From: Terriglobia bacterium | GTDB lineage: Bacteria > Acidobacteriota > Terriglobia > Terriglobales > Acidobacteriaceae | Direction: 5' to 3' | Length of the DNA stretch: 64,000 nt | Assembly (NCBI GenBank): GCA_020073385.1 | Contig: JAIQFH010000001.1 | Span: forward strand, 310,001 to 374,000 | Part shown: positions 22,757 to 26,550 of the stretch, one piece after another | How the letters are laid out: each line of letters starts with the position of its first letter | Numbering within the stretch: the first letter of the stretch is position 1 | Translations under genes and position numbers: made by a program | The notes under the pieces: generated by a model | Told to the model about the DNA's origin: nothing | Seen by the model: only the letters and a program-made list of their open reading frames with translations | Databases searched by the model: none

Positions 22757-23061
22757 TGGTTGCACTGCGTAAACAGTTCTGCGTGTCGCTAGAAGATATC
22801 AAATTCGTGTCGATTACATGCCAGCACTGCGGTGCAACCTTGACGCTGGATATGACGAGAACCACCGAGTCGCAAACAGAGCATAAGTTCTTTGCGCCCC
22901 GAACATGCCAAGTGTGCATGGAGCAGCATGACTCGGCAATTGCGAATCTGGATAATTTTCGCACTGCATATTGTTCGCTATCAGCGATCTCGAAAAGGCT
23001 TACTTTTTCGGGTGCTTCAGAGATCTCGATTTCGGACCGCGACGCCGATAAAACCGACTAG
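22756..23061 (+). CDS. Cys4 protein of unknown function, 101 aa (IS passenger gene 3)
   Basis: Two CxxC pairs (CQHCG near residue 22, CQVCM near residue 51) suggest a zinc ribbon about 25 residues across. The rest is hydrophilic. Its ATG overlaps the stop of the 58-residue gene, and its stop TAG shares the CTAG at 23058-23061 with the converging transposase stop. That tight packing supports a real gene within the element. No function can be assigned. Confidence 0.65.
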   Translation: MVALRKQFCVSLEDIKFVSITCQHCGATLTLDMTRTTESQTEHKFFAPRTCQVCMEQHDSAIANLDNFRTAYCSLSAISKRLTFSGASEISISDRDADKTD

Positions 23062-24077
23062 AACGGAACTTGTTCTTCTTCCGTCTTACCAGTGACCTCG
23101 GCGAAGGTGAGGCGCTTGCCGACGAACATTGGCAATGCAGTTTCGAATCGCTGCAAGTCGGTCATTGGAGTTTTGTCTTCATGTTTGCGGTGGTTGTACC
23201 GGAAAACTTGCTCATCGACGTAACGCTCAAGATGAAAAGGCTCGACAGCAACGTAGGTTCCCTTGAGAGTTCGCTTCAGCAGACTCCAAAAGTTTTCGAT
23301 GCCGTTAGTGTGAACCTGCCCGTTTACATAAGTCTCCATGTGGTTTACAACGTCATGAACAAAGTTATAGTTAACCTTGTCATATCCGACCGCTTCATCG
23401 GTATAGACCTTGGTGCCGTGCTTCACTTCACTCAACAGGGTAGCCTGGAGAGTCTCACGCTTTACGTTTGGAATCACTTTCGCGCGGACGGTGCGCAAAT
23501 CTCGGTCAAGCATTCCCATGACGGCAGTCTTGCCCATGGAGCCACCAGTGCGACCACCCTTTTCGGATATGAAACGCTCACGGCGATCCTTGTGCATATT
23601 CTTAAGTTTGCCGCCAACGAAAGTCTCATCGACTTCAACCGGGCCAGAGCCACCACCGATCTTGGTCTTGGTTCCGAACTTCTTAGCATTGAGCGAGAGC
23701 CCCAAGCGAATGCGGTGCAACATAAACCATGCCGACTTCTGGGTAACGCCGATGGCTTTGGCAATCTCGTAAGACGAAACCCCGTTCTTGCAGTTAGACA
23801 GCATCCAGACGGCAGTCAACCACTTATCCGCAGGGATCGGAGAGTCTTCCATCACGGTGCCGACCTTGGCCGAAAACTGGCGCTTGGGGTGGACACTCTT
23901 GCATTGCCACTTGCGCTGATTCTTCAGGAAAACCACGTCCTCCCGACCGCAACGGGGGCAGTACACGACGCCATCAGGGAACCGCAGGCGCTTCATGTAC
24001 TCCAGAGCATTATCAGGATTAGAGAAAAAGAGGATTGCGTCTTGCAATGTCTTTGGTTTCATGTTCTTGCCGTCCAT
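23058..24077 (-). CDS. IS1595-family transposase
   Basis: The 339-residue protein has the IS1595 (ISXO2-like) layout. An N-terminal zinc ribbon (YCPRCG ... WQCK) is followed by QFSAKVGTVMEDSPIP and a helix-turn-helix (SSYEIAKAIGVTQKSAWFMLHRIR). The catalytic domain has VEVDETFVGGK (first Asp), VYTDEAVGYDKV (second Asp) and HTNGIENFWSLLKRTLKGTY (third site and Lys). It cuts and pastes the element between the inverted repeats at 21668 and 24125. I use the ATG at 24077; a GTG at 24095 is also in frame. No frameshift is seen, so it may be active. Confidence 0.95.
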   Translation of the reverse strand: MDGKNMKPKTLQDAILFFSNPDNALEYMKRLRFPDGVVYCPRCGREDVVFLKNQRKWQCKSVHPKRQFSAKVGTVMEDSPIPADKWLTAVWMLSNCKNGVSSYEIAKAIGVTQKSAWFMLHRIRLGLSLNAKKFGTKTKIGGGSGPVEVDETFVGGKLKNMHKDRRERFISEKGGRTGGSMGKTAVMGMLDRDLRTVRAKVIPNVKRETLQATLLSEVKHGTKVYTDEAVGYDKVNYNFVHDVVNHMETYVNGQVHTNGIENFWSLLKRTLKGTYVAVEPFHLERYVDEQVFRYNHRKHEDKTPMTDLQRFETALPMFVGKRLTFAEVTGKTEEEQVPF

Positions 24078-24102
24078 ATGTATAAGGTAGCACACAGACG
24101 AT

Positions 24103-24125
24103 GATTCGTCAAGTATATTATTGCC
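24103..24125 (-). repeat. IS1595-type right terminal inverted repeat
   Basis: Read on the minus strand it begins GGCAATAATATACTTGACG and ends GAATC, matching the left end with three differences. Confidence 0.92.
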
Positions 24126-24133
24126 ACGCTAAC
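24126..24133 (+). repeat. Target-site duplication, right copy (ACGCTAAC)
   Basis: An exact repeat of 21660-21667, immediately outside the right terminal inverted repeat. Confidence 0.93.
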
Positions 24134-24236
24134 TTATAGATTCTATTGGACCCAGAGGGAGGGGGGATCGGCGCCTTCCCTGAACGGAGTCGAAGTGCGT
24201 CTTTCATGGTTGATGCATTCCTCCTCAACTTCCCCC

Positions 24237-24264
24237 TTGACGTCCGGTTGGTCGGTTCTATACC
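24237..24264 (+). promoter_or_regulatory. Predicted sigma-70-type promoter for the riboswitch operon
   Basis: TTGACG (24237-24242) and TATACC (24259-24264) are separated by 16 bases. Transcription would begin near 24271, about 30 bases before the SAM riboswitch. The position relative to the aptamer supports the call. Confidence 0.55.
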
Positions 24265-24299
24265 ATCACGAGAACAAGTTCGCTCTTCGGAGCGGACCT

Positions 24300-24417
24300 G
24301 AATTTCATGCAGAGTGGCTGAGGGACGAGCCCTGAGACGCCACGGCAACCGATCCGGGATCATATATCTCGGATGTCTGGTGCCAACTCTCTCCTGGAAA
24401 CAGGGAACATGGGATTC
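24300..24417 (+). ncRNA. SAM-I (S-box) riboswitch aptamer
   Basis: The core sequence follows the SAM-I consensus: GAGTGGCTGAGGGACGAGCCC, then TGAGACGCCACGGCAACC, a variable hairpin, and GGTGCCAACTC. Helix P1 forms between GAATTTCATG (24300-24309) and CATGGGATTC (24408-24417), with ten pairs including two G-U. The P4 hairpin TCCTG-gaaa-CAGGGA follows GTGCCAA. S-adenosylmethionine binding normally switches off methionine or sulfur genes, so the downstream PLP enzyme and carrier protein should be repressed when SAM is abundant. Confidence 0.92.
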
Positions 24418-24446
24418 GGCAAGCGCGCTGTATTTGCTTTCCGATA

Positions 24447-24487
24447 GCCTCTTTTCCTTTTCCTGGAAAAAGAGGCCATAGTTTTTT
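24447..24487 (+). terminator. Intrinsic terminator of the riboswitch (expression platform)
   Basis: GCCTCTTTTCC pairs with GGAAAAAGAGGC (24447-24475), and a run of six T follows at 24482-24487. It sits between the aptamer and the gene at 24567, as expected for SAM-controlled premature termination. Confidence 0.75.
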
Positions 24488-24566
24488 ATGGCCAATTTTT
24501 CCGGCTCGTCCTCAGCTATTCGCAAGTGATTCCGAGTTTTCGGAATAAGAAAGGCGAGTAGCCGTC

Positions 24567-25868
24567 ATGTCTCACTACGAATTGCGGTGCCGCGAATGCG
24601 GACGGACGTGGGGAAACCAGCCCCGCTCCATCTGCGACGATTGTTTCTCCCCCCTCGAAGTCGCTTACGACTACGACGCATTGAAAGCTTCTGTCAGTCG
24701 TGAGCGCATCTCGCAGCGGGCACCGAACATGTGGCGCTACTCCGAACTGTTGCCCCTCCCCCCAAGCTTCACCCCGCGTTTGCCGGTTGGCTTCACGCCG
24801 CTCTTCAACGCGCCGCAGTTGGCGCAGAAGTTGAGCGGCACTGCTGCTGCAGGAAATCTGTACATCAAGAACGACGCAGTTTGTCTTCCCACGTTGAGCT
24901 TCAAGGATCGTGTCGTTGCCGTAGCCCTCTCCCAAGCTCGTGCTTTTGGCTTCGACACCGTCTCGTGTTCCTCGACGGGAAACCTGGCAAACGCGGTTGC
25001 TGCACACGCGGCGCGCGAAGGCCTGAAGGCATGGATCTTCATCCCGTCTGATCTCGAGCCTGCGAAGATTCTCGGCACGAACGTTTTCGGCGCCAAGGTT
25101 GTACGCATCGCCGGGAACTACGATCAGGTCAACCGCCTCTGCTCGCAGATCGCAGACGAACATCGTTGGGGATTCGTGAATGTCAACCTGCGTCCGTACT
25201 ACGCGGAAGGATCCAAGACCGTCGGATTTGAGATCGCCGAACAACTCGGCTGGCGTCTGCCCGACAACATCGTCTGCCCTATGGCTGGCGGATCGTTAAT
25301 CACCAAGATCAGGAAAGCGTTCGATGAACTGATCAAACTAGGTCTGGTCGAACCGAAGGAAGTGAAGTTCTTCGGCGCGCAAGCGACCGGATGCTCTCCG
25401 ATCTCGACTGCGGTAAAGAGCGGCAGTCCTGAGATCGAACCGCAGAAGCCGAATACCATCGCGCGCTCGCTCGCGATCGGTAATCCCGCCGACGGACACT
25501 ACGCCATCAAGACCATCAAGAACAGCGGAGGATGGAGTGAAGACGTCAGCGATCCGGAAGTGGTCGACTCGATCCGTCTGCTCGCGGAGAGCGAAGGCAT
25601 CTTCACCGAAACCGCAGGCGGAGTTACGGTCGGTTGTGCTGGCAAGTTATATCGTCAAGACCGTATTCTGCCGGATGAAACCACGGTGCTGTGCATCACC
25701 GGAAATGGTTTGAAGACCACGGATGTGCTCGCTGGTGTGTACAAGACAGAGCGGCCGATCGCTCCGAAGCTCGCGGAGTTCGAGGCGCATCTGCAGCAGA
25801 CGCTGGACTTGGATGAAGTTCCCGGCGTTGTCGCCGCAGCGCAAGAAGCCGCGGAGATTGGAGCATAG
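24567..25868 (+). CDS. thrC: Threonine synthase-like PLP enzyme under SAM-riboswitch control
   Basis: An N-terminal zinc ribbon (CRECG near residue 8, CDDC near residue 23) precedes a fold-type II PLP domain. The PLP lysine is Lys113 (TLSFKDR), the phosphate loop is SSTGNLANA, and ITGNGLKTTD closes the site. By family it converts O-phosphohomoserine to threonine. Control by a SAM riboswitch and pairing, 2 bases apart, with a MoaD/ThiS-like sulfur carrier suggest instead that it may use O-phosphohomoserine, or a related ester, with carrier thiocarboxylate to make homocysteine, as CysM does with CysO for cysteine. The family call is firm; the alternative activity is inference. Confidence 0.85.
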   Translation: MSHYELRCRECGRTWGNQPRSICDDCFSPLEVAYDYDALKASVSRERISQRAPNMWRYSELLPLPPSFTPRLPVGFTPLFNAPQLAQKLSGTAAAGNLYIKNDAVCLPTLSFKDRVVAVALSQARAFGFDTVSCSSTGNLANAVAAHAAREGLKAWIFIPSDLEPAKILGTNVFGAKVVRIAGNYDQVNRLCSQIADEHRWGFVNVNLRPYYAEGSKTVGFEIAEQLGWRLPDNIVCPMAGGSLITKIRKAFDELIKLGLVEPKEVKFFGAQATGCSPISTAVKSGSPEIEPQKPNTIARSLAIGNPADGHYAIKTIKNSGGWSEDVSDPEVVDSIRLLAESEGIFTETAGGVTVGCAGKLYRQDRILPDETTVLCITGNGLKTTDVLAGVYKTERPIAPKLAEFEAHLQQTLDLDEVPGVVAAAQEAAEIGA

Positions 25869-25870
25869 GC

Positions 25871-26152
25871 ATGCCGATTACGGTCAGCATTCCAACCGCA
25901 TTGCGACGTCATACCGAAGGAGTGGCCTCGATCACGTGTGCCGCGGCGAATCTTGGTGATTTGTTCTCGGTGCTCGACGAGAAGTTCCCCGACCTGAAGC
26001 CGCACCTGCGTGACGACAAGGGCCAGATTCGCCGTTTCCTGAACATCTACGTGAACGAAGAGGACATCCGCTTTCTGGGCGGACCATCCTACGCGTTTCA
26101 GGAAGGCGACGAAGTGCTGCTGGTGCCATCGATCGCGGGCGGCGCGCAGTAG
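25871..26152 (+). CDS. MoaD/ThiS-family sulfur-carrier protein with a GGAQ tail
   Basis: The 93-residue beta-grasp protein shows ITVSIPTALRRHT at the start, the LFSVLDEKFP helix, FLNIYVNEEDIRFLGG and the closing EGDEVLLVPSIAGG followed by Ala-Gln. Carriers of this family are adenylated and thiocarboxylated on a C-terminal Gly-Gly. The extra Ala-Gln would have to be removed first, as JAMM-type peptidases do for QbsE and HcyS. No such peptidase or E1-like enzyme lies nearby. Its start 2 bases after the ThrC-like gene indicates one operon. It could serve cysteine, homocysteine or molybdopterin synthesis; the context favours a sulfur amino acid. Confidence 0.85.
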   Translation: MPITVSIPTALRRHTEGVASITCAAANLGDLFSVLDEKFPDLKPHLRDDKGQIRRFLNIYVNEEDIRFLGGPSYAFQEGDEVLLVPSIAGGAQ

Positions 26153-26550
26153 TCCGGCACTTAAATTCCACCCTGCAGCGAATCGAGTTGGATATCGCGC
26201 GTACCTCACGTGCAGCGCTCAATTTGGAGTTCCCCACTGATCACAGAAACATCTTGCCAACATTGGTTGTGATCTCCTGTTGGTTCTCTGCTAACGTTCG
26301 CACGTTTTGTGTGCGTAGATCTCGGGAAATCTACAAGACGGTTCAACACACCTGTGCGCACAGATTCCTCTTTGGATGTGAGGTTTCGAGCGCGATTGCG
26401 ATTGAAGAATTTACATTTCGATGACCACAATTCACGCTATCGCTTTCACGTCGACAACGTCTGAATCGGCATCGTCGCCGCGCCCGCAGCGGAGTTTGCC
26501 GTCTCAGTTGCAACGAACGAGGATGCGCGGCAGCGATTCCGGAGTGGTCT
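26153..26550. other. Intergenic region with nothing recognised
   Basis: The 398 bases are mixed in composition and show no convincing gene, strong hairpin or repeat. A promoter for the TPR-protein gene is expected near its right end but is not obvious. Confidence 0.4.

Follow-up and report, generated by a model that had tools for sequence, protein, structure and literature searches.

An operon of MetM/MetO type behind a SAM-I riboswitch in an acidobacterial genome, probably for homocysteine synthesis

Introduction

Why would a gene for a threonine-synthase-like enzyme lie behind an S-adenosylmethionine (SAM) riboswitch and 2 bases ahead of a gene for a sulfur carrier? This arrangement was found in a 64,000-nucleotide stretch (the window) of the genome of a Terriglobia bacterium of the phylum Acidobacteriota (assembly GCA_020073385.1), located on contig C128 of 140 contigs totalling 8.23 Mb. 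The original prediction, made from the letters of the window alone, proposed that the pair makes homocysteine from O-phosphohomoserine with a protein thiocarboxylate as sulfur donor, and took the pairing to be uncharacterized. The analysis presented here favors the same substrate and product: with a probability of roughly 0.87, the locus is a homocysteine synthesis operon of the MetM/MetO type. The genes, their order, the riboswitch family, the clade of the enzyme, the missing alternative routes and the co-occurrence across genomes are the observations on which this reading is based. The pairing itself has a precedent. According to the available part of PMC12172450, the homocysteine synthase MetM was identified in Streptomyces by Hasebe et al. 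2024, homologues occur in cyanobacteria, and a SAM riboswitch is located upstream of metM in S. albulus. The pathway kind is thus already described, and the operon of the window is a well-supported relative in a further phylum.

Results

Components of the operon

The features of the locus are collected in Table 1. The open reading frame of the enzyme matched PALP (PF00291, 212 bits), and its product contains N-terminal cysteine pairs (Cys8-Cys11/Cys23-Cys26) and a presumed pyridoxal phosphate (PLP) lysine, Lys113, within LSFKDR. The carrier reading frame matched ThiS (PF02597) with 41.1 bits against a cut-off of 22.5, and the nearest solved relative of its product was mycobacterial CysO (3dwg, E 2.7e-20). 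Upstream, RF00162 matched over the whole model (1-108) with 66.1 bits against a gathering threshold of 44.4 (E 3.5e-13 in 64 kb), and the aptamer folded alone had a closed P1 stem, AUUUCAUG/CAUGGGAU (z -2.74). Both the SAM-I aptamer and the closely spaced fold-type II PLP enzyme and beta-grasp carrier of the original prediction were thereby recovered, the reading frames agreeing with PF00291, TIGR00260 and PF02597.

The N-terminal ribbon cysteines of the enzyme are partly replaced by serine in two relatives, G179 (L114) and G225 (L115), as in YELYSKESGKSYG...ICDES, and a zinc site may therefore be lost there.

The enzyme falls in a clade apart from threonine synthase

A scan of named contigs was limited to the best 80 of 587 relatives, which span Acidobacteriota, Nitrospirota, Nitrospinota, cyanobacteria, Planctomycetes, Verrucomicrobia, Deltaproteobacteria, an actinomycete and others. 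The closest named enzymes, 96% and 90% identical, were those of Acidobacteria and Candidatus Sulfotelmatobacter metagenome-assembled genomes. A carrier gene was located at most 3.8 kb downstream in 73 of these best 80 (of 587). The SAM-I scan covered 17 of 20 chosen loci, and the element was present upstream in 7 of the 17 at distances of 44 bp to 2.3 kb. In Nonomuraea gerenzanensis (L243), one of the seven, SAM-I is followed by the gene for MetM (52.9% identical) and then by that for a MetO ending in GG.

In a tree of 107 proteins, all 85 MetM sequences formed one clade (support 0.949), apart from 22 threonine synthases (ThrC) that included two from the same genome as the operon. The Nonomuraea enzyme, with its identical gene order, fell inside the 85-member clade. 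The tree took 26 of the 80 named loci; cyanobacteria were represented, the S. albulus MetM and the Microcystis protein discussed below not being among them. Seventeen positions distinguish the MetM clade from ThrC. Leu140, in the MetM loop STGNL, corresponds to alanine in 17 of 19 members of the ThrC set and to threonine in the four solved ThrC shown.

Riboswitch and carrier recur beside the enzyme across the phylum

The phylum was surveyed in 247 genomes of Acidobacteriota, including that of the operon; counts of the enzyme, the carrier, MetX and the JAMM protease are throughout among the matches listed (with 90 further ThrC and 150 carrier matches). Scores for the enzyme query split into 58 full-length matches of at least 419 bits, joined by 2 contig-edge fragments, and a remainder of at most 253 bits. 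In the resulting MetM group of 60, a carrier gene was located within 1.5 kb downstream in 33, a count that carriers weaker than E ~1e-9 could escape, and SAM-I was located within 500 bp upstream in 32 and within 6 kb in 37, three SAM-I rows below the cut-off being left out. Beside the next 90 ThrC matches listed, neither a listed carrier (0/90 within 1.5 kb downstream) nor SAM-I (0/90 within 500 bp upstream) was found. Because the order SAM-I, enzyme, carrier recurs elsewhere and is missing beside the ordinary ThrC genes listed, this survey of thrC neighbors, the first check on the original prediction, indicates more than chance. Conversely, 37 of the 41 SAM-I sites over the cut-off in the 60 MetM genomes were within 6 kb upstream of MetM. 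Among MetM matches of at least 500 bits, 28 of 30 had the carrier and 21 of 30 the riboswitch.

Within the bacterium's own family the association was nearly complete. The carrier adjoined MetM in 20 of 21 genomes (the exception being G023), and SAM-I was present at MetM in 20 of 21 (the exception being G112, where the contig ends within the gene).

An acyltransferase was called present when MetX reached 200 bits or MetA exceeded its cut-off. By this measure 6 of the 247 genomes had both MetM and an acyltransferase, 54 had MetM only, 72 an acyltransferase only and 115 neither (Fisher p 2.3e-5, kinship ignored). In the 26 genomes of the own family the corresponding numbers were 0, 21, 4 and 1, a distribution which suggests that MetM/MetO has taken the place there of synthesis by way of acyl-homoserine. 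One genome of this family (G210) gave no match to the MetM group or to HcyBio, and neither MetX nor MetA passed the thresholds applied.

Alternative homocysteine routes are missing from the genome

The genome had 11 PALP matches, and two ThrC homologues besides the operon enzyme, on C76 and C94. The C76 ThrC (451 aa, TIGR00260 271 bits) is followed by the homoserine kinase gene thrB (TIGR00191, 215 bits against a cut-off of 168), so that a further conventional thrC, for which the original prediction proposed to look, is indeed present. No credible MetX match was found in the genome. The best candidate, with 103 bits to TIGR01392 at C28, was rejected because it better fits another hydrolase (NF005071, 554 bits against a cut-off of 305); by contrast, MetX matches in four genomes of the same family reached 376-397 bits. 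Profile searches of the genome likewise gave no match for MetA or for HcyBio (DUF39). Without MetX and MetA the acyl-homoserine route was rejected for this genome, and the DUF39 route was rejected without a HcyBio match. The genome is therefore not one in which the enzyme would be the only thrC beside a complete sulfide-dependent route to homocysteine.

Carrier maturation and sulfur supply

Four ThiS-family carriers were found in the genome. On C116 a CysO-like carrier gene adjoins that of a MoeZ-type ThiF-rhodanese protein, and on C121 a CysM-like gene adjoins a JAMM protease gene. The CysO-like carrier of C116 (L036:5997-6311) also has residues beyond GlyGly (ending AGGAA), as in MetO. Of the two SAM-I elements in the genome, the only other one (C135:34927-35040) precedes the genes for a NifS/IscS-type cysteine desulfurase (C135:35148-36353; L032:7149-8354) and a class I methyltransferase. 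Its aptamer is similar to the metM aptamer, and the two expression platforms are unlike.

Extension past the GlyGly motif was common in relatives. The phylum carriers comprised 21 extended past GG (20 of the own family and that of G188) and 13 ending in GG; the 73 named carriers comprised 37 extended, 33 ending in GG and 3 unclassified. Trimming of MetO is likely given such extensions here and in relatives, and MetO would probably be trimmed before carrying sulfur. In five named carriers the extension was about 80 residues long, and a NIL domain (PF09383) was found in 3 of 3 tested. At L210, L194, L209, L234 and L239, the GG of the carrier encoded 3′ of metM is internal and is followed by a further domain at the C-terminus, as judged for L209 and L234 by reading the sequence. 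The sequences suggest that the MetO-NIL fusion is either a polyprotein carrier or a carrier with a methionine-sensing tail.

The choice of JAMM as the trimming protease is a guess. A JAMM match of at least 65 bits was listed in each of the 21 genomes whose carrier is extended and in 7 of the 13 whose carrier ends in GG. The link is weakened in that 5 of the 6 genomes lacking JAMM come from one family (f18) and the five own-family genomes without MetM also have JAMM; the protease may serve CysO alone. We put at somewhat below even odds the fuller proposal that MetO is a capped pro-carrier in the own family and several other phyla, with extra residues or, in some genomes, a NIL domain as the cap, that the cap is removed by a JAMM protease which also serves the CysO branch, and that in this genome the desulfurase that supplies the sulfur is under its own SAM-I.

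The leader of the operon

The terminator included in the original prediction was borne out only weakly. The hairpin and T-tract at 24470-24500 were more stable than shuffled versions (z -4.84), but a pattern scan of 24100-26400 gave 3 terminator-like sites where 2.7 were expected, which is not above chance, and the leader fold was ambiguous. When the leader was folded as a whole, positions 24448-24473 were paired, at minimum energy, with the 3′ part of the aptamer (24388-24412). This alternative pairing competes with the aptamer and with the upstream hairpin of the expression platform (Table 1), while the hairpin at 24474-24493 stays formed, and two exclusive switch states were therefore not separated by the folds. 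The promoter candidate had 9 of 12 consensus matches, which is close to what chance would give (2 such sites in the region, 0.7 expected). An IS1595-family transposase gene is located just 5′ of the riboswitch, at 23058-24095 on the minus strand of the window.

Table 1. Features of the metM/metO-like locus (window coordinates)
Feature	Position	Strand	Basis
Candidate sigma-70-like promoter, TTGACG ... TACCAT	24237..24266	+	consensus scan
SAM-I (S-box) riboswitch aptamer	24302..24415	+	Rfam RF00162; isolated fold with closed P1
Possible expression-platform hairpin, GCCTCTTTTCC / GGAAAAAGAGGC	24447..24476	+	minimum-energy folds; inference
Terminator-like hairpin, then T-tract	24474..24500	+	fold z; pattern scan at chance
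metM-like gene, ThrC-homologous fold-type II PLP enzyme, 433 aa	24567..25868	+	profile matches, tree clade, 17 diagnostic positions
metO-like gene, beta-grasp sulfur carrier, 93 aa, ending ...SIAGGAQ	25871..26152	+	PF02597; nearest solved relative CysO
GlyGly codons (26138-26143) and extra C-terminal AlaGln codons (26144-26149)	26138..26149	+	sequence; comparison with relatives

Gene neighborhoods in relatives

In one relative (G169), SAM-I is followed in the gene calls, in order, by genes for a ThiF-type E1 activating enzyme, a cysteine desulfurase, MetM and MetO, the E1 and the desulfurase being assigned by Pfam and NCBIfam. An E1 and a cysteine desulfurase are likewise located behind SAM-I in G128, G153, G019 and G215, as judged by similarity to the G169 proteins. 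In G128, G153, G169 and G019 (L116, L118, L119 and L122), MetO ends in GG and no JAMM of at least 65 bits was among the matches listed. MetH is encoded upstream of MetM in G094 (Pfam), and similar-looking genes were seen upstream in several relatives by reading. Diverged members of the group in G199, G206, G221 and G088, as family searches indicated, adjoin genes for homoserine dehydrogenase, a GHMP kinase, another ThrC-like protein, aspartokinase, CysH, siroheme synthase or sulfite reductase, neighbors that would fit a joint supply of O-phosphohomoserine and sulfide.

A match to a SAM-II type element (SAM_alpha) was found in G235 (L120:6285-6359, minus strand; 36.3 bits against a gathering threshold of 36); downstream of it follow a short-chain dehydrogenase-like gene and then metM and metO. 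If real, it places a different class of SAM riboswitch on the same operon.

Discussion

Proposed pathway

For the steps that follow, namely the catalysis, the sulfur source, the trimming of the carrier and the direction and mechanism of the switch, we infer a scheme in which the homoserine kinase of C76 would make O-phosphohomoserine and MetO would be trimmed to expose a C-terminal GlyGly. The MoeZ-like E1 would then adenylate MetO, and sulfur, probably from a cysteine desulfurase by way of the MoeZ rhodanese domain, would be placed on it to form the thiocarboxylate. MetM would bind O-phosphohomoserine on PLP and eliminate phosphate, whereupon attack of the MetO sulfur at C-gamma would yield homocysteine. 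By analogy with other SAM-I elements, plentiful SAM would close the aptamer and the expression of metM and metO would fall.

In the ThrC reaction, loss of phosphate is followed by addition of water at C-beta, whereas homocysteine requires addition at C-gamma. MetM must therefore trap an earlier intermediate than ThrC, for which the changed loop residues are a candidate basis. The original prediction is thus favored as to substrate and product and modified as to chemistry, since the thiocarboxylate would not simply take the place of water.

Alternative functions

Several observations weigh against the assignment to homocysteine synthesis. The GlyGly of the carrier is not terminal, two residues (AQ) lying beyond it, and neither the minimum-energy folds nor the pattern scan of the leader yielded a clear terminator/antiterminator pair. 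In the diverged half of the MetM group (419 to below 500 bits) only 3 of 28 had a listed adjoining carrier and 11 of 28 had SAM-I, and all six genomes with both MetM and an acyltransferase belong to this low-scoring half. The scarcity of carriers there, together with the presence of hom, thrB or lysC beside some members, implies that some members of the group may be ThrC. The genomes surveyed are related, so their counts are not independent. Two full-length PF01053 enzymes of unsettled function are kept in the genome (C76, 410 aa; C113, 385 aa). Finally, the enzyme exceeds the equivalog cut-off for threonine synthase (TIGR00260, 262.8 bits against 167.1), and the solved structures nearest to it in sequence are threonine synthases.

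The last point bears on the strongest alternative, an unlikely one in our judgment, in which the enzyme is a threonine synthase, whether ordinary or bifunctional, with the carrier serving another thiolation and SAM-I controlling threonine output in an aspartate-family flux shared with methionine. The available part of PMC12172450 describes a Microcystis ThrC, encoded beside a gene that was compared with S. albulus metO and 51.6% identical to S. albulus MetM, that was active as a threonine synthase in vitro. With sulfide, according to the same partial source, this protein gave only an unidentified peak near methionine, and methionine was not raised in cells (PMC12172450). These results speak against regarding all members of the group as MetM only. 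In the genome of the operon, however, C76 already encodes ThrC and ThrB, and C94 encodes a third ThrC homologue; the 90 other ThrC matches listed lack the riboswitch and carrier; MetM takes the place of the acyltransferase within the family; and the 17 positions separate its clade from ThrC. A threonine-only function was rejected on these grounds, tree and context both setting MetM apart.

Less probable still is the production of another thiol, such as cysteine from O-phosphoserine as by CysM/CysO. The resemblance of the carrier to CysO is in its favor, but the partner enzyme is ThrC-like and not of the CysM/CysK family, so a CysM-type function was rejected; separate CysM-like and JAMM genes (C121) and a CysO-like carrier with MoeZ (C116) exist, and SAM control points to methionine. 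Equally improbable is synthesis of homocysteine from O-phosphohomoserine by a PF01053 enzyme, as by plant cystathionine gamma-synthase, with the operon as an accessory: none of the best 25 NCBIfam models for either PF01053 protein exceeded its own cut-off, which leaves room for such a role, but the C113 gene, 3′ of a CysK-type gene and scoring highest as cystathionine gamma-lyase/homocysteine desulfhydrase, looks like one for reverse transsulfuration, and neither SAM-I element of the genome precedes a PF01053 gene.

Comparison with known systems

For the Streptomyces system, O-phosphohomoserine appears in the cited title of the 2024 report by Hasebe and colleagues, and thiocarboxylated MetO is reportedly the donor. 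Compared by description, the S. albulus and acidobacterial systems share a ThrC-homologous enzyme, a neighboring carrier, a SAM riboswitch upstream and O-phosphohomoserine as presumed substrate. The operon of the window differs in its phylum, Acidobacteriota, and in having genes for a MoeZ-type E1 and for a cysteine desulfurase at other sites of the genome, the desulfurase gene being preceded by a second SAM-I element; it may also differ in its carrier, which ends in GG and AQ.

Wolinella succinogenes is said to use HcyS/HcyD with MetY (Krishnamoorthy and Begley, 2011), a thiocarboxylate being the sulfur donor and a carrier residue beyond GlyGly being removed; MetY is reportedly a PF01053 enzyme using O-acetylhomoserine. 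The use of a protein thiocarboxylate for homocysteine and a carrier capped past GlyGly would be common to both systems, whereas the partner here is a fold-type II enzyme and not a PF01053 protein, and no acyltransferase was found in the genome. With the CysO/CysM/Mec+ system of Mycobacterium tuberculosis, the locus shares a carrier closest to CysO in a genome that also has a JAMM protease and MoeZ; it differs in its ThrC-like, SAM-controlled partner, whose product would be homocysteine. The DUF39 (HcyBio)/NIL-ferredoxin route, described for methanogens and Desulfovibrio in the available part of PMC5764234, is likewise an alternative homocysteine synthesis and also involves NIL domains, which in some named genomes are fused to MetO; HcyBio was not found in the present genome. 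Available portions of two further papers report that cysH and thrC are fused in three Thermoplasmata assemblies (PMC11237513) and that, in Bacillota, SAM riboswitches occur on hom1 and only T-boxes on thrC (PMC12452182).

Implications

No published account was found of this operon in Acidobacteria, of a capped MetO, of MetO-NIL fusions or of a SAM-I-controlled cysteine desulfurase of the C135 type, in a search that fell short of most subscription papers. The maturation of the carrier (capped GlyGly, JAMM, NIL fusion) and the SAM control of sulfur supply are thus the details for which no published description was found. If these proposals are true, SAM sets both the homocysteine enzyme and the sulfur supply in this genome. 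As the enzyme scores above the TIGR00260 cut-off, its gene would probably be annotated as threonine synthase, and genomes that depend on such an operon may consequently look like those of methionine auxotrophs.

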